41,317 bases of DNA from a virus. The notes beneath the pieces were generated by a model. That model saw only the letters and a program-made list of their open reading frames with translations. It did not search any database and was not told the DNA's origin. A program made the position numbers and the translations under genes. How positions within the stretch are numbered: position 1 is the first letter of the stretch; each line of letters starts with the position of its first letter. This document shows positions 1 through 41,281 of this stretch, in pieces. The DNA is taken from IMG/VR virus record IMGVR_UViG_3300033551_000012, positions 1-41,317 of that record. One strand, 5' to 3'.

Positions 1-64
1 GATGTACCGCAGTTCTTTATCTGGCGGTTGACCTGGTTGCCCGAGAAACAGAAATACGAAAAGA
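1..64. repeat. 64-bp perfect inverted repeat, arm 1 (left contig end)
   Basis: Bases 1-64 are the exact reverse complement of 3498-3561, and the match stops at base 65. The partner arm lies inside the 5' part of the primase-helicase gene, where it is plainly coding, so this copy is the secondary one. A perfect inverted match beginning at base 1 is typical of an assembly or amplification chimera. A real terminal inverted duplication is the less likely alternative. Confidence 0.9.
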
Positions 65-1081: not shown

Positions 1082-3594
1082 GTTGAATCCAGTTTTTCCC
1101 GGATAGAATCGTTGTCTATCTTCCCTATCACCCAAACCCGATGCGGAATCCCTCTCCATTTGATTTGCTGCTTGATAGCTCGGTACCCGAGGTCACCCAG
1201 CATTTTGGATAGAGCGCTGGTCTTTGGAATCTCTATCCCCTCTGCCATGCACACCATCTTCATCGCTTTAGTAAGGCAAGCGCTCGATAGAACCTGCGGA
1301 TGCACGCCGTACGCCCCCGTGGCTATCACTTGGCGAGCGATAGCGTGCGCCTCATCCTCGCCAGATACACGCATTTCGTGCTTTTCAGGTGTATCTGGTG
1401 CGTGCCCGTTAGGATCGAACCAGGCCGGTATCTGCATCTCAGTGAGCCATTTGCGCACCTGCCCAGGATGCTGCTGGCACAGGCTGAACACCTTGTCGAA
1501 CTTTTCCCCCAGTTCCTTCACGGTCAGGGCGTTGTTTGCCACGGCGCAGTCGAGGGCGCAGCTGTAGGGGCTGAACACCACGAACCAGCGCCGGTCGTTT
1601 TCCTCAAGGGGTACCGCATCGTTGAAATTGGTGAAGGCGATGAAATTGCTGATGTTGATGATCGGCAGTAGGCCCTTGCCCTTCCGGTTGATGGTGATAC
1701 GACTGTTGGTGACGTTATCCTTGAAGGCGTTGGCGATGACGTACCGCTGTTTCCCGTCCATCTTCAATTCTTCCATGCTGATGACGCAGGCACCGTGCGC
1801 CCAGTCCGTAAAGCCCCCGGTGTTCATCACCACCGCAGGGCCTACCGACGACACGTTGCGTTCGCCCATGGCAGCCCCGAGCACGCTGGTAATGATCGAC
1901 TTGCCGTCACCGGGGACACCCTTCAGAATCGGCGCCCAGCGCACTTTCACGCCGGGGTTCTGCACGTTGTAGGCCAGCCAGGCCAGCAGCTGACCATAGA
2001 CTTCCTGGCGGTGGTCGCAGAATGCTTGCAGCATGGTCGCGAAGGTCTTGATGCCCTCGATCCCCTCAGCCGTGTAATCCTCAAGCGCTGGAAGGCTCTC
2101 GGGGGTGTACAGGTTGGCGAACGTGCGGCCCTGGTAGGTGAACAGGGGATCGAATTTGGGGACGTACATCATGTCATGCACCGTCGGCATGCCCCAGCGC
2201 TCCAGCGACCACCTGGCCGCGTCTTCCTTGTCCCCGTTCTGCTTGGTGGGCATATAGCGGTTGAAATCGGCCTGGAAGCTGGTCCGGCTCAATTCCGTCG
2301 CACTGCGCACATGGAAAAAGGTATCGGACCGCCGCACATACACGTGCTCGCTCACGAACGGGAGCGCATCGGGGTTTACCGGCTCGCTGCTGGCAGGTTT
2401 GGCACACGCCACCATCAGGCGGGCAGCTGTGATGGTTACCGGTATCTGGAAATCCTTCAGACGGTCCTTCACCATTACGGCCAGGCGGTCGCGGTCGAGC
2501 ATGCCCACCGTGCCGTCAGCAGCGATCCCCGGAATAACCTCATTGCGCAGTTCGTCTTCCTCGGCCCGTGCAATGCGCTCGATCCAGTTCTGACTTGCGG
2601 CCTTGCCCGCTTCGTCCACGGTAGAGGTCAACGGGGGAGGGGGTTCCTTGTCCACCAGCACCCGCGACACGCCCGAGCAGGCCCGCGCAATGGTGAAGCC
2701 AAGGTATGTGGTATCGCGGCGCGGACTATCCCACTTGTCGCGCACCAGGGCACTCTGACGCATCAGGCGCTCAATGCGGGGAGCATCACAGCCCGTCCAG
2801 AACGCCAGCTGCATCGCAAGCGCGCCGTCAGCCTCGGATTCCCCATACGGTTCGCCCTGCGGGAATGCAATGCGCAGCTTGGCCACGTTCCCTTCCCAAA
2901 GGTCGCGGAATGTTGCCTTGTTGCCGAAAACCCCCTCTACGCTTTGACTTTGCAGTGCCCTGCGCAGCAGTTCGGCGTCATCGGTAGGCCCACGCCACTC
3001 GGGACGCGGCCCGCTACCCCGCTGCTCCAAGGGTATCCAGGGCAGGAAGTGAGGAACGATATAGGCCATCGCGTTCGAATGGTCCACATCCGCACAGCCT
3101 TCAGCCTGGTCGGTCAAGCCGAACGCAATGCCCCGGTCTTCCGTGTAGAGTTCCAAGCCTGGCCACTGCCCATTCTTGCAACCATGCTCCGGCACGTGAC
3201 CACTGCCAACAATGTGCAGGCCGCGACCGCTCGATGAGAACTCGGTGAATGCACCCGGCAGCGCTTGCAGGAACCAATTGGCCGTGTCGCTCAGCACTCC
3301 TTCAGCGTTCATCACTTCGTCGAGGTCGAGGAACCAGTAGCCGGCTTCCTCTGTCACCCACCAGCCCAGCGTGTATTGAAAGCCGTCGTTGCGGCTGCGC
3401 AGGTTGGCCAGCACGGCCACCGCAGTCTGGTAGGCCATCCAGTTCTTGGGGTTGGCCGCGTCCATGATGAGGTGCGAGCCGCTTGGATAGCACGGGGTCT
3501 TTTCGTATTTCTGTTTCTCGGGCAACCAGGTCAACCGCCAGATAAAGAACTGCGGTACATCGACCAGATCACCCAGCGCGTCAGCTAGGCGCAT
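1039..3594 (-). CDS. Primase-helicase (AEP-like primase plus DUF5906/SF3-like helicase)
   Basis: This 851-residue replication protein has two parts. The N-terminal third shows archaeo-eukaryotic primase (prim-pol) features: YWFLDLDE with the metal-binding Asp pair near residue 90, SSSGRGLHIVG near 120, and LELYTEDRGIAFG near 150. The C-terminal half carries a Walker A motif, GVPGDGKS, near residue 565, a Walker B-like VISMEELKM, and the distal IINISNFIAFTN and ENDRRWFVVF segments of phage/plasmid DUF5906-type helicases. It should unwind DNA and lay down primers for the family-B polymerase encoded at 16004. The start has GAGGG 7 bases upstream and overlaps nothing essential. The stop codon lies within the iteron cluster. 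Confidence 0.9.
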   Translation of the reverse strand: MRLADALGDLVDVPQFFIWRLTWLPEKQKYEKTPCYPSGSHLIMDAANPKNWMAYQTAVAVLANLRSRNDGFQYTLGWWVTEEAGYWFLDLDEVMNAEGVLSDTANWFLQALPGAFTEFSSSGRGLHIVGSGHVPEHGCKNGQWPGLELYTEDRGIAFGLTDQAEGCADVDHSNAMAYIVPHFLPWIPLEQRGSGPRPEWRGPTDDAELLRRALQSQSVEGVFGNKATFRDLWEGNVAKLRIAFPQGEPYGESEADGALAMQLAFWTGCDAPRIERLMRQSALVRDKWDSPRRDTTYLGFTIARACSGVSRVLVDKEPPPPLTSTVDEAGKAASQNWIERIARAEEDELRNEVIPGIAADGTVGMLDRDRLAVMVKDRLKDFQIPVTITAARLMVACAKPASSEPVNPDALPFVSEHVYVRRSDTFFHVRSATELSRTSFQADFNRYMPTKQNGDKEDAARWSLERWGMPTVHDMMYVPKFDPLFTYQGRTFANLYTPESLPALEDYTAEGIEGIKTFATMLQAFCDHRQEVYGQLLAWLAYNVQNPGVKVRWAPILKGVPGDGKSIITSVLGAAMGERNVSSVGPAVVMNTGGFTDWAHGACVISMEELKMDGKQRYVIANAFKDNVTNSRITINRKGKGLLPIINISNFIAFTNFNDAVPLEENDRRWFVVFSPYSCALDCAVANNALTVKELGEKFDKVFSLCQQHPGQVRKWLTEMQIPAWFDPNGHAPDTPEKHEMRVSGEDEAHAIARQVIATGAYGVHPQVLSSACLTKAMKMVCMAEGIEIPKTSALSKMLGDLGYRAIKQQIKWRGIPHRVWVIGKIDNDSIREKLDSTVTSGELVTHSLPS
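3498..3561. repeat. 64-bp perfect inverted repeat, arm 2 (inside primase-helicase gene)
   Basis: This segment is the exact reverse complement of bases 1-64. Here it encodes part of the N-terminus of the primase-helicase, so this arm is the authentic copy. Confidence 0.9.
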
Positions 3595-6788: not shown

Positions 6789-6810
6789 TTCGGTAAACCT
6801 CCTTGGTTGG

Positions 6811-6838
6811 TACTGCCAAAGCCCCAGTTAAGGGGCGT
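6811..6838 (-). terminator. Terminator-like 3' module, copy 1 of the duplicated cassette
   Basis: On the minus strand GCCCC-TTAACT-GGGGC forms a hairpin followed by TTTGGCAGTACC. The 28-nt block matches 18443-18470 on the plus strand at 27 of 28 positions. Each copy lies just downstream of a gene driven by the duplicated promoter/leader. The T-run is short, so termination may be partial. Confidence 0.7.
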
Positions 6839-6856
6839 GTGGGTGGCGGGGCTGGA

Positions 6857-7039
6857 TCAGGCCGCGTTGATAATCATGCGGTCGGTTCCGTCGGTGTTGA
6901 AGCCCTTCAGAATTTCGATAGTGAACAAGTCGGCGATGTCTTCGGGCAGTGCGCCGGTTTCGTAGGCTTCAGCAAGGAAAGGCTCGATCATGCGGATATC
7001 CGAACCGGTGTTGTTCACGTAGCGGACGTTCTGGATCAT
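6857..7039 (-). CDS. Unknown 60-aa protein expressed from the duplicated leader (copy 1)
   Basis: The product starts MIQNVRYVNNTGSDIRMIEP and continues with acidic helices (YETGALPEDIADLFTIEILK). I do not recognise it. The true start is taken as the ATG at 7039, because GGAGG lies 8 bases upstream and the earlier in-frame ATG at 7078 overlaps the -10 box of the promoter. It has its own promoter, its own conserved 5' leader shared with the gene at 18094, and the terminator-like module at 6811-6838. It is therefore a monocistronic cassette inside the early operon. Confidence 0.75.
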   Translation of the reverse strand: MIQNVRYVNNTGSDIRMIEPFLAEAYETGALPEDIADLFTIEILKGFNTDGTDRMIINAA

Positions 7040-7093
7040 CGTCTTGCCCTCCGGGGCGTTGTTTGTCTCTATGGGCAAATCATAATTTATGAT
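7036..7093 (-). repeat. Duplicated 58-nt promoter/leader module, copy 1
   Basis: This module matches 18040-18097 (plus strand) at 55 of 58 positions. It runs from the palindromic operator through the -10 box and untranslated leader to the start codon. The three differences leave the operator core, the hairpin stem, the Shine-Dalgarno sequence and the start codon unchanged. Confidence 0.9.
7046..7057 (-). promoter_or_regulatory. GGA-loop hairpin over the ribosome-binding site, copy 1
   Basis: In the transcript GCCC-CGGA-GGGC can fold with GGA in the loop and the GGAGG Shine-Dalgarno partly in the stem. This resembles the binding sites of CsrA/RsmA repressors. The loop differs from copy 2 only by C instead of T before GGA. 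Confidence 0.5.
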
Positions 7094-7107
7094 TTAGAAG
7101 TCGTCAA
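7077..7107 (-). promoter_or_regulatory. Sigma70-like promoter with overlapping palindromic operator
   Basis: On the minus strand TTGACG (7107-7102), a 17-base spacer and TATGAT (7084-7079) form a near-consensus promoter. The operator AAATCATAATTTATGATTT (7077-7095, a 9-1-9 perfect inverted repeat) covers the -10 box, so a bound protein should block RNA polymerase. Confidence 0.8.
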
Positions 7108-7111
7108 CAAG

Positions 7112-7132
7112 AAAAAGGGCGCCTAGGCGCCC
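7112..7132 (-). terminator. Intrinsic terminator after the TetR-like gene
   Basis: GGGCGCCTAGGCGCCC is a 16-base palindrome followed on the minus strand by TTTTTC. It contains the TAG stop of the TetR-like gene and lies directly upstream of the promoter at 7077-7107, so it insulates that cassette. Confidence 0.85.
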
Positions 7133-7449
7133 AAGAATTCCTTCCAGCTTTGAACTGTATCCGGCGGGATATCGCCCCGGTAGCGAGCCGCTGCCCGTAC
7201 TCCCAGCGCCAGCGCCTGCGCGATGATCGTCAGATTGCCACGGGCCATGCCTTCCTTCAGCACTGCTTCGCGCAGCTGGGCGCGCTGGCCGAAGTAGCGA
7301 CTGACCAGGCCGTCTGTCACCTCGCCTTTCAGTTCCTCGACCACCATCAAGCGGTTGATCTTCGAATAGCCTTTCACCTCGGCAACACGAATGGCCGCTT
7401 GCAGGATTTGTTCAGTTCGTTCGGCTGGCGCCATTCGCTTGGTTGCCAT
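7123..7449 (-). CDS. Short TetR-like transcription regulator (N-terminal HTH only)
   Basis: The 108-residue product fits the TetR N-terminal domain: RTEQILQAAIRVAEVKGYSK is helix 1, the HTH region follows (MVVEELKGEVTDGLVSRYF), and QRAQLREAVL ends it. The usual ligand-binding domain of about 120 residues is missing, so the protein is probably constitutive or responds to something other than a small molecule. The ATG at 7449 has GGGGA upstream; a start at 7488 would lack one. TetR proteins bind palindromes as dimers, so this is a candidate binder of the TCRTAAWTTATGA operators, one of which begins only 30 bases away. Confidence 0.75.
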   Translation of the reverse strand: MATKRMAPAERTEQILQAAIRVAEVKGYSKINRLMVVEELKGEVTDGLVSRYFGQRAQLREAVLKEGMARGNLTIIAQALALGVRAAARYRGDIPPDTVQSWKEFLGA

Positions 7450-9768: not shown

Positions 9769-9983
9769 TTGAAACGTTCCTCAGCGTCGGAGTTCGCCCA
9801 TGCTTCATCAACACTGCGCCAGCTGCTGGTTTTGACGATCAACGCTTTGGCAGCTTCCAAAGGTACGCCCAGATTTTTGCAGCGCAAAGGGTCGATAGAA
9901 CCTGCGAATTTGAAGCCCTCATAGAAGGCGTCTTTCACCATCTGATCCACACCCAACTGGCGGCACAACCACGCCCGGATCAT
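9765..9983 (-). CDS. Unknown early protein, 72 aa
   Basis: The frame begins MIRAWLCRQLGVDQMVKDAF and contains FAGSIDPLRCKNLGVP and a C-terminal Trp/Glu-rich helix. I preferred the ATG at 9983 to the one at 10007, because it overlaps the upstream stop as ATGA and has GAGG upstream. I do not recognise the family. Confidence 0.65.
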   Translation of the reverse strand: MIRAWLCRQLGVDQMVKDAFYEGFKFAGSIDPLRCKNLGVPLEAAKALIVKTSSWRSVDEAWANSDAEERFK

Positions 9984-10414
9984 TTCCAGATACCTCGCTC
10001 GATGCACTCAGCAATGGCCTTGTCAACGCATTCGTCATACCGCTCTGCGTTGAAGTCATAGCGCTCGGCAAAACGGATAGCGCTCCACACTTCCCACAGC
10101 TGGTTGTCGAACAGACAATCGCGGGCGAACCGATAGCGGTCGGCGTTGTTAAACTGCGGGGTAGCATCTAGCCACGAAGTGAACACACTGCGCCACCATG
10201 GGGCTTTTCGCTCGATTACCTGCCCGAACAGATAACCTGTACCAATCCACATCGCTTGGCATTGCAGATCATCCGGCTTGGCTTGCCAGCAGCCAGAAGA
10301 CTTGCAGTAAATGGGTGCGTGGCTGTAGGCCCACGCCACGCCGTTTTTATTGACGACGGCCCATTTGAAGACGCCGGGCAGGTCTTTGAAATCACGTTGC
10401 GACAGGGTTTTCAT
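9980..10414 (-). CDS. Unknown early protein, 144 aa
   Basis: The soluble product is rich in Trp, Asp and Arg (for example AKPDDLQCQAMWIGTGYLFG and WSAIRFAERYDFNAERYDEC). The ATG at 10414 has GGAG 9 bases upstream and is preferred to the ATG at 10429. A promoter with a palindromic operator (10451-10478) lies just upstream, inside the end of the helicase gene, so this gene probably begins a sub-operon running through 9765 and beyond. The function is unknown. Confidence 0.7.
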   Translation of the reverse strand: MKTLSQRDFKDLPGVFKWAVVNKNGVAWAYSHAPIYCKSSGCWQAKPDDLQCQAMWIGTGYLFGQVIERKAPWWRSVFTSWLDATPQFNNADRYRFARDCLFDNQLWEVWSAIRFAERYDFNAERYDECVDKAIAECIERGIWK

Positions 10415-10434
10415 TCTGCGGTGCTCCATGTGTT

Positions 10435-12168
10435 TTAGTACTGAGGCAAGTCTATATCGTAATTTATGATTTCGGCAACCTTTTCTTTCACACGTTCCGC
10501 CAAGGTGTCTGCGTCGGCCTTCCTGAGCGCAAAAGCCGAAAGCATATCGATGTTGAAGGTGTGGTAGAAACGCCGTATCACCTTGTCGTCAGGTTCCCCG
10601 TGATGCGTCCCAGCCCACCAGGCCACGTAATGCCGCAAGCGCTTTTGAGCCGATTGAGCCTCCCGATGTATCTTGCGTTGGTTTGCCGCAGCGGTAGGGC
10701 CAGCACCTTGCGGGATGGCTACCCAGCTGCTATCGATCTTGGCCACCTCCCCGCGCATCTTCCTCAACACTTCTGGGTCCAGTTCGAAGATGTCACCGCC
10801 CACCAGGTTCGGCAGGCTTCGTGCGCTTTCGTCTGGTAACGGTTTCGGCGCGCCGCAGTGTGGGCAGCGGCTCTCGATGATTTCGTACGGGTTCTCGCAT
10901 TGGTCGCACTGAATCATTGGGATGGCATCTTTCAGGTTGCTACCGCGCTTAGGGCGACGGTCCAAGGTCCAGATACGTGGCTTGTCAGGAAGCCCGTGAC
11001 GAAGCACGTTGCCCACATGGTCAAAGATGAACGCGATAGGCTTGGGCGATTCGGCAATCATCTGCTTGCGCTGGAACGGTGGATAGGTGTCCCAGGCTGC
11101 CCGCAGTACGCGGGAAATCATCAGGCGCAGCGCTCGCCCGAACTGCTGCATGTACAGCGCCAAGGACGCAGTAGGGCGCGCCATGCTGACGCACTCGATA
11201 TCCGGCAGGTCGAACCCTTCGCCGAACAGATCGACGTTTACCAACTGCAACAGCTTGCGTTGGGCAAAGTCGGAAAGCAGTCGAATGCGTTCACCTTCAG
11301 GGGTCTTGGAACTGATGACCGCAGCGGGCACGCCAGCAGCATTGAAGCCAGCAGCGATCCTGGTAGCTTCACTGATATCCACTGCGAAGGTGACGCCAAG
11401 CTTGTCGGCTGCATGCTTTAGGTAGGTGCTCACAACATCGCCAACGATTGCCGTCGATTTGGCCATGGCCTTAGCAAGCTGCTGCTGGTTGTAGTCGCCA
11501 GTTGTGGCGCTGATAGACACGCCGCTCAGGTCCAGATCGGTAGGTGTCGGGCACCATACCTTGTAGTCCGTGAGATAGCCGTTGTCGATTAGCCAGCGCT
11601 GCTCAGGTCCTTCTATCAGAATGTCGGCAATGCCGTCAGCATGCGCGCCCAGACCCGCACCTTCTGCCCTGATCGGTGTTGCGGTCGGTAGGAACGTTCG
11701 AAGGTTGGGGTTCTGGAACATGTGCCATGCCTTACCCCACTTGTTCATCCTCAGGAAGTGGTGGGATTCGTCGCCTATAAACAGCGTGGTGTCCCGAAAG
11801 AACGTCTCGCGCGGGTCCATCAGCACCAGGGTATCAACGCTGGCCACCCTGAACTGCGCGTGTGGATCGATGAAGTTGCGCCCGAACTCGCGCACGTGGT
11901 TGTTCCGCGCCTGCCGCACGGTGGCGTCCTGGCCTATGATGGAATGACGGATACCTTCGCGGGCAAGCTGCTGGCTCAGCTGGGTAACCAGCACGGACCG
12001 GTGCGCCGTGACCAACCCATATCCGTCATGTTCCTCGCACATGCGCCCTACCACCACCGTCTTGCCACCACCGGTAGGGCACCGCCACATGACGACTTTC
12101 TTGCCGTCGTCCCACGCTGCGTAGGTATCGTTCAGGCCTTGTTGTTGAAAGCCTGCTAGTACCGTCAT
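10435..12168 (-). CDS. SF2 (DEAD/DEAH-type) DNA helicase with zinc finger
   Basis: This 577-residue ATPase has motif I CPTGGGKTVVVGR at about residues 30-42, a DEAH-like box in FIGDESHHF near 135, motif III TATPIRAEG near 165, and motif VI QQFGRALRLM near 345. A C-terminal zinc ribbon CDQC...CPHCGAPK lies near 425-450. It should translocate on double-stranded DNA or remodel replication and recombination structures. It is the second gene of the leftward early operon. The ATG at 12168 overlaps the upstream stop. Confidence 0.9.
   Translation of the reverse strand: MTVLAGFQQQGLNDTYAAWDDGKKVVMWRCPTGGGKTVVVGRMCEEHDGYGLVTAHRSVLVTQLSQQLAREGIRHSIIGQDATVRQARNNHVREFGRNFIDPHAQFRVASVDTLVLMDPRETFFRDTTLFIGDESHHFLRMNKWGKAWHMFQNPNLRTFLPTATPIRAEGAGLGAHADGIADILIEGPEQRWLIDNGYLTDYKVWCPTPTDLDLSGVSISATTGDYNQQQLAKAMAKSTAIVGDVVSTYLKHAADKLGVTFAVDISEATRIAAGFNAAGVPAAVISSKTPEGERIRLLSDFAQRKLLQLVNVDLFGEGFDLPDIECVSMARPTASLALYMQQFGRALRLMISRVLRAAWDTYPPFQRKQMIAESPKPIAFIFDHVGNVLRHGLPDKPRIWTLDRRPKRGSNLKDAIPMIQCDQCENPYEIIESRCPHCGAPKPLPDESARSLPNLVGGDIFELDPEVLRKMRGEVAKIDSSWVAIPQGAGPTAAANQRKIHREAQSAQKRLRHYVAWWAGTHHGEPDDKVIRRFYHTFNIDMLSAFALRKADADTLAERVKEKVAEIINYDIDLPQY
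10451..10478 (-). promoter_or_regulatory. Internal early promoter with operator
   Basis: On the minus strand TTGCCG (10478-10473), a 16-base spacer and TATAGA (10456-10451) form a promoter. The spacer holds the operator core TCATAAATTACGA (10469-10457). It lies in the last codons of the SF2 helicase gene and would drive the gene starting at 10414. Confidence 0.6.
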
Positions 12169-12539: not shown

Positions 12540-12568
12540 GAATTTCTATCTCCAAGGGGTTGCGTGTT

Positions 12569-12603
12569 TCGTAAATTATGATTTAGTCTTGCAACCGTTG
12601 CAA
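12569..12603. promoter_or_regulatory. Divergent promoter/operator between the two early operons
   Basis: For the leftward operon, TTGCAA (12603-12598), 17 bases and CATAAT (12580-12575) form a promoter. In the rightward direction the same palindrome offers TATGAT as a -10 box, with a poor -35. The operator core TCGTAAATTATGA lies at 12569-12581 and overlaps both -10 boxes. A single bound repressor could therefore switch both directions. Confidence 0.65.
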
Positions 12604-16003: not shown

Positions 16004-18046
16004 ATGGTCGATCTAGCGTTTGAAATGCACCGCTTGCAGCAGGTCATGCAGCAGCTGAATAGCACCCGCCCCGTGGCAAACACCCCGTTCGATATCTCGG
16101 GGTGGGCGGAATGTGACACGGAATGTTATCGGGACTACTGGTTGATTAAGTTCTACATGCCCGATGGCACGTACCGCGAGTGGGCTTCCTACCCTGGTAA
16201 GCCGCTCGATACGGAAGGCCTGCGGGCGTTCCTGAACTCTCTGCCGGGCATCATCACCTTCAATGGCATGGGCTATGACTGCCCCATGATCTGCGCCGCC
16301 CTGCGCGGCTATGACAACCAGACGCTAAAGAATTTCAATGATGCGATCATCCCAGGTAACGGCAAGCAGGGCGTCAAGTATTGGGACTTCTACCGCAATT
16401 ACGGGATTCCCGAACCCACCTGGAACCATATCGATATCATGGAAGTCGCTCCAGGCGTGAAGCTGAGCCTGAAGGCCTACGGCGGTCGAGCGCACGCACC
16501 GCAGCTGCAAGACCTCCCAATCGAGCCGCACATGAGCATCAGCCCGCTCGACCGGCTCAACCTCAGCAGCTACTGCGGGAACGACCTGCGCACCACCAGG
16601 CTGCTCAAAGAAAAGATCATGCCGCGCCTGAAGCTTCGCCACGACCTCGGGGAGAAATACGGCATCCAGGTAATGTCGAAGTCTGACGCGCAGATTGCCG
16701 AGGCGGTCTACAAGAAAAAACTCAGTCAGCCACCGCAGCGCATCCACATGCCGCACGGCCACCGTTTCCGGTACGTGGCTCCCGAGTGGATCACCTTCGT
16801 ATCACCAGAACTGAACGAAGTCTTGCGCATGGTGCAGTCGCTCGATTTCGTGGTGAATGACGCGAGTCAGTTACAGCTTGATGAAGACGAAAAGGCCTAT
16901 GACTCGGACGGTCGCGAAATCAAATCGGGCGTGCGGATGCCTGCCGAGATTCGGGGTAGAGATATCACCATCGGCAAGGGTGTTTACCGGCTCGGTATAG
17001 GCGGTCTGCACAGCAAGGAAAAATCGGTTAGCTATCGCGCTGTCAAAGGGCGATTCATGCTCAGCGATCACGACGTAAACAGCTATTACCCAACATTAAT
17101 GCTGTTGATGAACATGTACCCGCCAGGCACTGGTCCAGAGTTCATCGAGTTGCTACGCGGCCTGTACAACGAGCGCTTGCACGCCAAGCACATGGCCGAG
17201 GCATACGAAAAGGCTGGTGATGACGCCCAGGCTGCGCAATGGAAGACTGTAAGCGACGGGCTGAAGATCGTACTCAACGGCACCTACGGCAAGCTTGGTA
17301 GCCGATGGTCGTTCCTGTTTGCCCCTGAACTGATGATTCGCACCACCATGAGCGGCCAGCTTGCATTGCTCATGCTAATCGAAATGCTGGAACTCAGCGG
17401 CATTCGGGTTATCTCGGCAAACACAGACGGCATCGTGGTAATCACGCCGCACGCGATGGAGTGGGTACGTGACGCAGTTATCGACTGGTGGGAAAAGTCC
17501 ACCGGCCTTGAAACCGAATCGACTGAGTACACATCGATCCACAGCCGGGATGTGAACAATTACGTGGCGTTCAAGCCGGACGGAAAGCACAAGGCAAAGG
17601 GCGTGTTCGGGGAATCCGGTGTGTCACCAAAGGCCAGTCCGACCGGTAAGCACCCAGGCAAGGATATCTGCAACGAATCCGTTATCGCCTATCTGCGCGA
17701 CGGCACACCTATCGAAAAGACCATTCGCGAATGCCGCGATATCCGCAAGTTCCTGGTCATTCGGGCCGTGGCTGGTGGTGCCATCCAGCAGTGCGAGCGC
17801 TTCATGGAGCTAGCATCAGGTGCCAGCTTCTGCGAACCATGCGATAAATACCTCGGCAAGGTCGTTCGCTGGTACTACGGCGCTGGGGTTACCGATTGCC
17901 TGCGGTACAAGTCGAATGGGAACAAGGTTGGCTCCAGTGACGGTGCGGTGCCGCTCATGGAACTCGATGGATCGTTCCCGGAAAACGTAAATTATGAATT
18001 TTACATTTCCGAGGCGAAAAAGATGTTGCGCAACCTCGGATCATAA
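16004..18046 (+). CDS. Family-B DNA polymerase with 3'-5' exonuclease
   Basis: The 680-residue enzyme shows exonuclease motifs Exo I (ECDTECY, about residue 35), Exo II (FNGMGYDCPM, about 85) and Exo III (YCGNDLRTT, about 190). Polymerase motifs follow: A (SDHDVNSYYPTLM, about 355), B (KIVLNGTYGKLG, about 425) and C (SANTDGIVV, about 472). Motif C reads NTDG rather than the textbook DTDS, a variant seen in distant phage enzymes. It should be the replicative polymerase, working with the primase-helicase. I chose the ATG at 16004 (GAGG upstream) rather than the one at 15992. Two operator-like palindromes lie at its 3' end. Confidence 0.9.
   Translation: MVDLAFEMHRLQQVMQQLNSTRPVANTPFDISGWAECDTECYRDYWLIKFYMPDGTYREWASYPGKPLDTEGLRAFLNSLPGIITFNGMGYDCPMICAALRGYDNQTLKNFNDAIIPGNGKQGVKYWDFYRNYGIPEPTWNHIDIMEVAPGVKLSLKAYGGRAHAPQLQDLPIEPHMSISPLDRLNLSSYCGNDLRTTRLLKEKIMPRLKLRHDLGEKYGIQVMSKSDAQIAEAVYKKKLSQPPQRIHMPHGHRFRYVAPEWITFVSPELNEVLRMVQSLDFVVNDASQLQLDEDEKAYDSDGREIKSGVRMPAEIRGRDITIGKGVYRLGIGGLHSKEKSVSYRAVKGRFMLSDHDVNSYYPTLMLLMNMYPPGTGPEFIELLRGLYNERLHAKHMAEAYEKAGDDAQAAQWKTVSDGLKIVLNGTYGKLGSRWSFLFAPELMIRTTMSGQLALLMLIEMLELSGIRVISANTDGIVVITPHAMEWVRDAVIDWWEKSTGLETESTEYTSIHSRDVNNYVAFKPDGKHKAKGVFGESGVSPKASPTGKHPGKDICNESVIAYLRDGTPIEKTIRECRDIRKFLVIRAVAGGAIQQCERFMELASGASFCEPCDKYLGKVVRWYYGAGVTDCLRYKSNGNKVGSSDGAVPLMELDGSFPENVNYEFYISEAKKMLRNLGS
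17985..17997. promoter_or_regulatory. Operator-like palindrome inside the end of the polymerase gene
   Basis: ACGTAAATTATGA matches the operator core at all but its first base. It lies 56 bases upstream of the operator at 18040-18056. The pair could allow cooperative binding or DNA looping at the promoter of the csrA-containing operon. Confidence 0.5.
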
Positions 18047-18056
18047 ATTATGATTT
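18026..18056 (+). promoter_or_regulatory. Promoter/operator of the zinc-finger and csrA operon
   Basis: TTGCGC (18026-18031), a 17-base spacer and TATGAT (18049-18054) form a promoter whose -10 box lies within the palindrome ATCATAAATTATGAT. The architecture is identical to that at 7077-7107, with a weaker -35. Confidence 0.7.
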
Positions 18057-18097
18057 GCCCATACAGACGAACAACGCCCTGGAGGGCAAGACGATGA
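18040..18097 (+). repeat. Duplicated 58-nt promoter/leader module, copy 2
   Basis: This module matches 7036-7093 (minus strand) at 55 of 58 positions. It differs at positions 25, 30 and 41 of the module, the last being the first base of the hairpin loop. Confidence 0.9.
18076..18087 (+). promoter_or_regulatory. GGA-loop hairpin over the ribosome-binding site, copy 2
   Basis: GCCC-TGGA-GGGC can fold with GGA in the loop and with the Shine-Dalgarno sequence inside, 8 bases before the start codon at 18094. This is the expected layout of a CsrA/RsmA translational operator. The phage csrA homologue starts 460 bases downstream. Confidence 0.5.
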
Positions 18098-18435
18098 CCG
18101 ACAAACTCTACCCATGCAGCCGCTGCGCAGGGCAAGGCCGCATCAGCGCTTTCGGTCATGTACTGGCCGGCGTGTGCTTCCAGTGCAAAGGCAGCGGCAA
18201 GCAAAAGAGCAAGCCAGCACCCAAGGCAATCAAGTGGGCAGTGTTCGGGCACGACCGCAACACCGAAAAGCCTGGTCGCCTGTACAACGTAAAGGCGCCT
18301 ACCGAGGCAAAGGCAATCGCCAAGGCGCAAGATTTGTTCGGCAACGCCAGTACGGCGTTCAAGGACACTTGGACCATGAGCAAGGCATTCGCCCTGACCT
18401 GGGAAGAAATCGCAGCGGCAGAGCCAGCGGAATAA
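18094..18435 (+). CDS. DnaJ-type zinc-finger small protein
   Basis: The 113-residue product has two CxxCxGxG-type knuckles, CSRCAGQG at residues 8-15 and CFQCKGSG near 28-35, as in the zinc-binding region of DnaJ. A basic linker and a C-terminal domain follow (WAVFGHDRNTEKPGRLYNVK; ALTWEEIAAAEPAE). No J domain is present. The start is the ATG at 18094, 8 bases after GGAGG; the in-frame ATG at 18055 adjoins the -10 box and is rejected. It shares its promoter and leader with the gene at 6857-7039 and precedes csrA in the same operon. Confidence 0.75.
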   Translation: MTDKLYPCSRCAGQGRISAFGHVLAGVCFQCKGSGKQKSKPAPKAIKWAVFGHDRNTEKPGRLYNVKAPTEAKAIAKAQDLFGNASTAFKDTWTMSKAFALTWEEIAAAEPAE

Positions 18436-18440
18436 AAACC

Positions 18441-18470
18441 AAGCCCCTTAGCTGGGGCTTTGGCAGTACC
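18441..18470 (+). terminator. Terminator-like 3' module, copy 2 of the duplicated cassette
   Basis: AAGCCCC-TTAGCT-GGGGCTT forms a hairpin followed by TGGCAGTACC. It matches 6811-6838 (minus) at 27 of 28 positions. With a short T-run, read-through into csrA is likely. Confidence 0.7.
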
Positions 18471-18553: not shown

Positions 18554-18799
18554 ATGCTGATCCTAACCCGCAGGCGCAACGAATGTATTCTGCTCCAGTT
18601 TCCTACCGGTTCTGAAACCTTGGAGGTCATGAGCCGCAACAAGGTTCGTATCGGCAAGGATATCTTCCACATCGAACCGGGCAACCACATCGAGCGGGGC
18701 GGTCTGGATATCCTGTGCAAGTCCTGGCGCGGCGGTCAGATGAAGTTGGGCTTCACCGGGCCGGAAGAAATCAAGATCATTCGCACGGAGCTATTGTGA
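18554..18799 (+). CDS. csrA: CsrA/RsmA-like RNA-binding regulator
   Basis: The 81-residue product begins MLILTRRRNECILLQF, matching the conserved CsrA N-terminus including Leu4 and the Arg6-Arg7 pair. It ends with KLGFTGPEEIKIIRTEL, the counterpart of the CsrA segment ending in V-x-R-E-E-I, whose Arg contacts GGA. CsrA is normally about 61 residues; the extra 20 lie in the middle (HIEPGNHIERGGLDILCK). CsrA dimers block or stabilise mRNAs by binding GGA loops. The leader of this gene itself has AAGGAAGG and TGGAAAATG, fitting autoregulation. Likely targets include the two duplicated leaders and host Gac/Rsm outputs; targets are inferred. Confidence 0.82.
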   Translation: MLILTRRRNECILLQFPTGSETLEVMSRNKVRIGKDIFHIEPGNHIERGGLDILCKSWRGGQMKLGFTGPEEIKIIRTELL

Positions 18800-34651: not shown

Positions 34652-34680
34652 AAACTAATCATTATTTACGATTGTGTCAA
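34652..34680 (-). promoter_or_regulatory. Promoter for the tRNA-like RNA
   Basis: On the minus strand a perfect TTGACA (34680-34675), 17 bases and TAGTTT (34657-34652) lie in the last codons of the DUF115-like domain. The spacer holds TCGTAAATAATGA, one mismatch from the operator core. The predicted start coincides with the 5' end of the tRNA-like sequence. Confidence 0.6.
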
Positions 34681-41174: not shown

Positions 41175-41202
41175 TTCTCTATCTCCACGAAAGTTAGCGA
41201 AT

Positions 41203-41268
41203 CTCTATCTCTATCTCTATCTCTATCTCTATCTCTATCTCTATCTCTATCTCTATCTCTATCTCTAT
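41203..41268 (-). repeat. (ATAGAG)11 hexanucleotide tandem repeat upstream of terS
   Basis: Eleven exact copies of ATAGAG (CTCTAT on the plus strand) run between a TATAAT-containing motif and the terS ribosome-binding site. The array is prone to slippage and to assembly breaks. Similar but imperfect hexamers occur at 88-135 and 738-760. On the minus strand one frame reads (Ile-Glu)11, open to the window edge. Confidence 0.95.
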
Positions 41269-41281
41269 CTGGTCGATTCCC

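Follow-up and report, generated by a model that had tools for sequence, protein, structure and literature searches.

In T4-type phages, Arbiol et al. reportedly described in 2010 a class of mobile regulatory cassettes, the PeSLs, in which a stem-loop regulatory sequence is repeated between exchangeable modules and is proposed to mediate their shuffling. PeSLs are also said to carry an early promoter. T4 mobile regulatory cassettes are cited in PMC4177764. The mosaic structure of phage genomes is generally attributed to illegitimate recombination, given how rarely shared boundary sequences are encountered (PMC3029335). Lambdoid phages possess boundary sequences, i.e. short stretches, conserved where modules meet, on which homologous recombination could act, and morons are single ORFs with a promoter and a terminator (PMC3029335). 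Nearest to the locus described here are the SAS/ESAS elements of cluster K mycobacteriophages (PMC3203893; PMC12699233), the function of which is also unproved: a short conserved sequence lies at the start codons of non-homologous, mostly non-structural phage genes (PMC3203893).

The stretch of DNA analyzed in the present study (the window; 41,317 nt, an IMG/VR virus record) derives from a tailed phage whose genome is colinear with that of Pseudomonas phage Psp6 (about 70–80% nucleotide identity). Window positions 1–64 are a perfect 64-nt inverted copy of the internal positions 3498–3561, and an ATCTCT hexanucleotide run occupies 41189–41270; both are probably contig-end artefacts. A sequence-only reading had called attention to two cassettes with matching ends around different genes (Table 1), and had proposed either coordinated control of two functions or a swappable cassette whose ends serve as recombination homology. 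Direct reading and an independent repeat search of the window reproduced the 58-nt front ends (7036–7093, minus strand, vs. 18040–18097, plus strand; 3 of 58 positions differ), the search yielding 91% identity over 65 nt (7029–7093 and 18040–18104). The 28-nt back ends indeed differ at one position, the first copy being located at 6809–6836 (minus strand) rather than at 6811–6838, a shift of 2 nt, and the second at 18443–18470 (plus strand; 94% over 31 nt for 6809–6839 and 18440–18470 in the repeat search). Allowing up to three mismatches, the back-end pattern was found twice in the window (0.00 expected from shuffled sequence) and the promoter palindrome ATCATAAATTATGAT gave 11 strand matches at six window sites (0.25 expected), counts so far above the shuffled expectation that chance is excluded. 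As had been claimed, the 60- and 113-codon genes between the ends are unrelated and belong to separate blastp families.

Sequence comparison indicates that the 58-nt block is a composite, in which a lineage-specific promoter/operator is joined, at the predicted transcription start, to a leader common to many Pseudomonas phages. By the same comparison, the exchangeable unit is the 33-nt 5′ UTR together with the ORF and a 3′ module, not the 58-nt block, and the promoter/operator is resident. The reading we favor, and regard as fairly probable, is that of an exchangeable expression chassis under a resident, phage-regulated promoter.

Table 1. Cassette features, palindrome sites and neighboring genes in the window
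Feature	Position	Strand	Remarks
Cassette 1 promoter, σ70-like	7079..7107	-	TTGACG (7107-7102), 17 nt, TATGAT (7084-7079); 10/12 in consensus scan
Cassette 2 promoter	18026..18054	+	TTGCGC (18026-18031), 17 nt, TATGAT (18049-18054); read from sequence
Palindromic operator-like site, cassette 1	7079..7093	-	ATCATAAATTATGAT; overlaps −10 hexamer; syntenic copy in Psp6
Palindromic operator-like site, cassette 2	18040..18054	+	Exact; syntenic in Psp6
Second palindrome copy, 56 bp upstream of operator 2	17984..17998	+	3 mismatches; syntenic in Psp6
Palindrome in divergent intergenic region	12568..12582	.	Between helicase and polA transcription units; syntenic in Psp6
Palindrome at helicase gene 3′ end	10456..10470	-	Upstream of ORF 9980-10429; syntenic in Psp6
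Palindrome directly after TTGACA hexamer	34658..34672	-	Psp6 counterpart at 11995 of its reverse complement
TetR_N-like protein, candidate regulator of palindrome	7123..7449	-	Pfam TetR_N E 0.0022, below curated cut-off; PHROG 8723; 83% identical in Psp6
Cassette 1 5′ leader, 33 nt	7040..7072	-	Predicted +1 at 7072; GGAGG Shine-Dalgarno in GCCC-CGGA-GGGC hairpin
Cassette 1 60-aa ORF	6857..7039	-	60 codons; homologues in L013, LPPA33 (L101), PS-1
Cassette 1 3′ module, from stop codon	6809..6859	-	TGA-TCCAGCCCCGCCACCCACAC-GCCCCTTAACTGGGGCTTTGGCAGTACC; 96% over 52 nt to Psp6 locus-2 module
Cassette 2 5′ leader, 33 nt	18061..18093	+	Covariance model match
Cassette 2 113-aa ORF	18094..18435	+	CxxC...CxxC zinc-finger-like N-terminus; weak DnaJ_CXXCXGXG / anti-TRAP similarity; absent from Psp6
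Cassette 2 3′ module	18433..18470	+	TAA-AAACCAA-GCCCCTTAGCTGGGGCTTTGGCAGTACC
CsrA homologue directly downstream of cassette 2	18554..18799	+	Pfam CsrA E 1.3e-8, above cut-off

A resident promoter joined to a widespread leader

All six palindrome sites of the window have a syntenic counterpart in Psp6, where the cassette 1 promoter is likewise conserved at the syntenic place. The site at 34658–34672 lies far from the early region, and its Psp6 counterpart is a 3-mismatch copy. A scan of other viral contigs for the operator core yielded only the near-identical L077 and an AT-rich chance match (L127). Together, the syntenic sites and the near-empty scan mark the promoter half as a feature of the window/Psp6 phage lineage. 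Operator 1 is adjoined by the TetR_N-like gene, and a search confirmed no relatives of its product in viral contigs. With the palindrome placed at both cassettes and at least four other sites, one phage regulator probably controls all of them. Promoters differ from phage to phage; upstream of −37, only the −35 and −10 columns were conserved in an alignment of 25 families.

The recurrence of the palindrome, at both cassettes and four further sites syntenic with Psp6, might be taken to mean simple coordinated control, i.e. that the ends were duplicated inside this phage for one regulator, with no wider cassette system behind them. As a complete account, this is contradicted, and rendered very improbable, by the presence of leader and 3′ module, usually as a single copy per genome, in unrelated phages whose promoters are different. 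The coordination foreseen by the sequence-only reading stands for the promoter/operator half, whereas leader and 3′ module reach beyond it.

The leader reads ACGCCCNGGAGGGCAAGACG-ATG. In a conservation profile of 25 copies, one from each of 25 different families, mean information amounted to 0.20 bits per site at −90 to −60, 0.18 at −59 to −37, and 1.48 at −36 to −1, the last figure being inflated over −20 to +2 because these positions served as the search key (−36 to −21 and the 3′ module lay outside it). Over +3 to +44 the mean was 0.095 bits, so homology ends at the start codon. In 18 of the 25 families, 39 nt separate the end of the −10 hexamer from the ATG. At this spacing, transcription is predicted to start at the border of the conserved block, 33 nt upstream of the ATG; the leader is predicted to be a complete 5′ UTR, from transcription start to ATG.

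The core of the leader, ACGCCCNGGAGGGCAAGACGATG, had exact matches in at least 75 viral contig stretches, and a BLAST search with a 37-nt leader query returned 127 phage records, 122 of them of Pseudomonas phages. Leader-bearing phages include Pbunavirus DL68, Nankokuvirus PAK_P5, Hollowayvirus PA8, and Detrevirus phi1, and the temperate P. aeruginosa phages among them include PA8, phi1, LESphi3, and LPPA33; the leader thus spans unrelated lytic and temperate phages. Covariance model R1 found one to three copies per record, mostly one. As most phages carry a single cassette, the two copies in the window are uncommon. In the genome collection, the exact core was found on only two contigs, from unrelated bacteria and neither from Pseudomonas, and a search of plasmids returned only one weak partial match, for which reason a bacterial chromosomal element was rejected.

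Both window leaders matched model R1 (7037–7072, E 9.9e-10; 18061–18096, E 9.1e-10), each being among the model's own sequences. The predicted fold leaves the A/C-rich 5′ end unpaired and forms a small hairpin downstream of it, which carries the Shine-Dalgarno sequence (−6.9 kcal/mol for the cassette 1 leader). A fixed-register count revealed no two-sided compensatory changes in the GCCC/GGGC hairpin; divergent copies refold in shifted registers (single sequences only), which suggests that the hairpin is kept. Against Rfam, the leader had no match at gathering scores in eight sources, and the L100 leader region none up to E 1. In both copies of the window, the frame of the ATG is free of stops throughout the 33 nt, in a TTG-started reading. 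A translated leader was rejected, as most other copies have no start codon there and those of L003, L034, and L097 differ in length.

In the predicted fold of nearly all leader copies, a 4-bp hairpin spans the Shine-Dalgarno sequence and has a GGA in its loop, as in leaders targeted by RsmA/CsrA. The leader might therefore be the binding site of an RNA-binding regulator (host RsmA or a phage CsrA acting on the loop GGA), with selection keeping the copies identical and exchange being a by-product. The location of csrA genes fits this view, since one lies directly downstream of cassette 2 and others shortly downstream of cassettes in Psp6, PA8, and the L021/L038/L040/L070 group. The usual Rsm/CsrA consensus is ANGGAN. 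The GGA context found here, CCYGGAGG, departs from it, and the GGA is also plain Shine-Dalgarno sequence. As only 15 of 45 leader-bearing records contained a CsrA match, phage CsrA was rejected as a general cassette partner, and we consider this explanation of the leader unlikely, although the host protein RsmA may act on it.

In temperate P. aeruginosa phages, a larger stem-loop is located directly upstream of the leader (L100, 2997–3050; type-A loci such as L008–L082). Together with the leader it folds at −34 to −42 kcal/mol, and it exists in several alleles, with compensatory changes in four pairs; these alleles occur with different genes. The stem-loop may be a processive antitermination or mRNA-stabilizing element of the early transcript.

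The 3′ module and the genes between the ends

The 3′ module consists of a C-rich stretch and a GC hairpin, and begins at the stop codon. Across the 25 families, information was 0.07 bits before the stop and 0.47 over the 45 positions from the stop codon on. In the converse search, by the 3′ hairpin alone, 16 contigs were retrieved; 11 of these had a leader upstream with exactly one ORF in between, and two more a degenerate leader. The hairpins of the window possess only a weak T-run, and their role as terminators is putative; the 3′ hairpin probably ends or protects the mRNA.

Blastp clustering (E 1e-3, single linkage) grouped the proteins behind 94 leader copies into 41 families, two of which are fragments, making about 40 a fair figure. 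The search for the end blocks around non-homologous genes in other phages, which the sequence-only reading had put forward as a check, thus returned about 40 unrelated families behind the leader. Their members are small and mostly uncharacterized. Almost no anti-CRISPR or other named function was found among the cassette families scanned, the exceptions being a ribosome modulation factor (RMF)/CrpP-like protein (L019), Dam (L091), a DNA polymerase III beta-like protein (L053), and an HNH protein (PPpW-3). The leader could serve as a search hook that marks these small-gene families, and hence a place to look for host-takeover and counter-defense functions.

For the 60-aa ORF of cassette 1, no family was found in Pfam, PHROGs, or NCBIfam. 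Its homologues in L013 and LPPA33 (L101) are preceded by the leader, while that in PS-1 is not. Relatives having the same gene without the conserved ends had been named in advance as speaking against the cassette idea, and PS-1 is such a case. It shows that the ends are not tied to the gene, and is no argument against exchange.

Different genes between near-identical flanks

Four contigs (L021, L038, L040, and L070) have flanks 92–95.5% identical to each other and different genes or gene orders in between. The gene in L021 encodes 48 aa; those in L038 (120 aa) and L040 (71 aa) are each accompanied by a 3′ module. In L070, another gene is followed by a 3′ module fused directly to a second leader, behind which lies the 48-aa gene of L021. 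More generally, a comparison of 79 loci, requiring at least 200 nt of upstream homology at ≥85% and no homology in the gene, identified 65 locus pairs in which upstream homology ends at +2 to +17 of the ATG and the genes are unrelated; these pairs stem from a restricted set of lineages and do not represent independent events. Homology was regained downstream in 12 of the 65. In the best pair, L042 and LESphi3 (L095), identity reached 99.75% over 806 nt up to the ATG. Conversely, nine gene families were found behind two or more different upstream regions.

The comparison with Psp6 gave a similar picture. At locus 1, homology, which covers the TetR-like gene and the operator, stops right after the operator, and where the window has the 60-aa cassette, other genes and a degenerate leader are found in Psp6. 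Locus 2 of Psp6 contains a 57-aa gene with 3′ module, followed by a 117-aa gene in place of the 113-aa gene of the window. Relative to Psp6, the ORF was replaced rather than inserted at both loci, and the promoter was resident. The swappable cassette of the sequence-only reading is borne out by the different single ORFs between leader and 3′ module and by near-identical phages that differ in the gene, with the amendment that the unit excludes the promoter and operator.

Whole cassettes might also have been inserted with their ends as morons, by illegitimate recombination, the common ends then reflecting only common descent and playing no part in exchange. An ORF standing alone with a promoter and a hairpin of its own agrees with how morons are described (PMC3029335), most phages carry one copy, and the first 3′ module of the window is 96% identical over 52 nt to a different Psp6 locus (Table 1). 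We nevertheless deem this distinctly unlikely, as promoters are not common to the cassettes and stay with the resident genome, and gene families follow different upstream alleles, the junction lying at the leader. Moreover, the fusion of 3′ module and leader in L070, together with the presence of the same gene behind the first leader in L021, is what recombination between leaders predicts. As for integron-like site-specific cassettes, no attC-like site was recognized by eye, and this option was set aside.

Returning to the exchangeable chassis, its resident part would be a σ70-like promoter with a −10 region overlapped by the lineage-specific palindrome, and its exchangeable part the 33-nt 5′ UTR, one short ORF, and the 3′ module from the stop codon. 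Host RNA polymerase would start at the leader, and the phage regulator would act on the palindrome to set the timing. Any ORF inserted behind the leader probably receives a standard early translation, independently of its own sequence; the A/C-rich start and Shine-Dalgarno hairpin of the leader are compatible with an accessible ribosome site. At the other end, the 3′ hairpin would end or stabilize the mRNA. The near-identity of leaders among Pseudomonas phages makes homologous recombination between them possible, and the second crossover could fall between 3′ modules or in common downstream DNA. Recombination at the ends would replace, add, or delete an ORF and leave expression intact. From the junctions and the short homology at the ends, we infer that the ends act as recombination homology, and the shared ends probably constitute a socket for gene exchange among phages.

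A broader version of this proposal, which we put forward tentatively and hold possible rather than probable, is that of one RNA-level socket across unrelated Pseudomonas phage genera, made up of a fixed 5′ UTR and a stop-anchored 3′ module. It would give access to a common pool of small, host-directed early genes, and early translation would be under the control of a factor, from host or phage, that recognizes the leader itself.

Comparison with described phage elements

The leader core sequence occurred in none of the papers searched, nor did these (with subscription journals mostly outside the search) contain a description of such an element for Pseudomonas phages. Of the described systems, PeSLs resemble the present cassettes in that a stem-loop element flanks different genes at the same place in related genomes. 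The reported early promoter, located within the repeated element of PeSLs, has no shared equivalent here, where the promoter is not common and the 5′ and 3′ UTRs around one ORF are.

Similarities to SAS go further. Like SAS, the leader is a conserved sequence at the start codons of different gene families, with inverted repeats upstream that are group-specific, as is the operator here (PMC3203893). In both, a Shine-Dalgarno core lies between complementary ends (GGG-ATAGGAG-CCC in SAS; GCCC-YGGA-GGGC in the leader; PMC3203893). SAS is 13 nt in length and present in 11–19 copies within one phage cluster, whereas the leader is a full 5′ UTR of 33 nt that usually occurs once per genome, one to three copies per record standing against the many of SAS. 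The leader is also different from, and longer than, the 13-bp SAS sequence GGGATAGGAGCCC, which lies only a few nt from start codons. Unlike SAS, the leader occurs across unrelated phages, and a 3′ module at the stop codon accompanies it.

With lambdoid boundary sequences the cassettes share short conserved junctions that could support homologous recombination, homology changing at the leader in the 65 pairs above, and with morons the single ORF with promoter and (here putative) terminator (PMC3029335). Unlike either, the ends described here remain conserved between unrelated phages and around unrelated genes, and they are bounded by the start codon, the stop codon, and the predicted start of transcription. 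As far as we can judge, none of these systems matches the sequence or the set of features, namely a leader forming the whole 5′ UTR, a 3′ module anchored at the stop codon, generally a single slot in each phage, and occurrence in many unrelated genera. In these phages a boundary sequence is visible, recurs in unrelated genomes, and coincides with transcript and codon boundaries, which makes the role of short regulatory homology in gene exchange directly testable.
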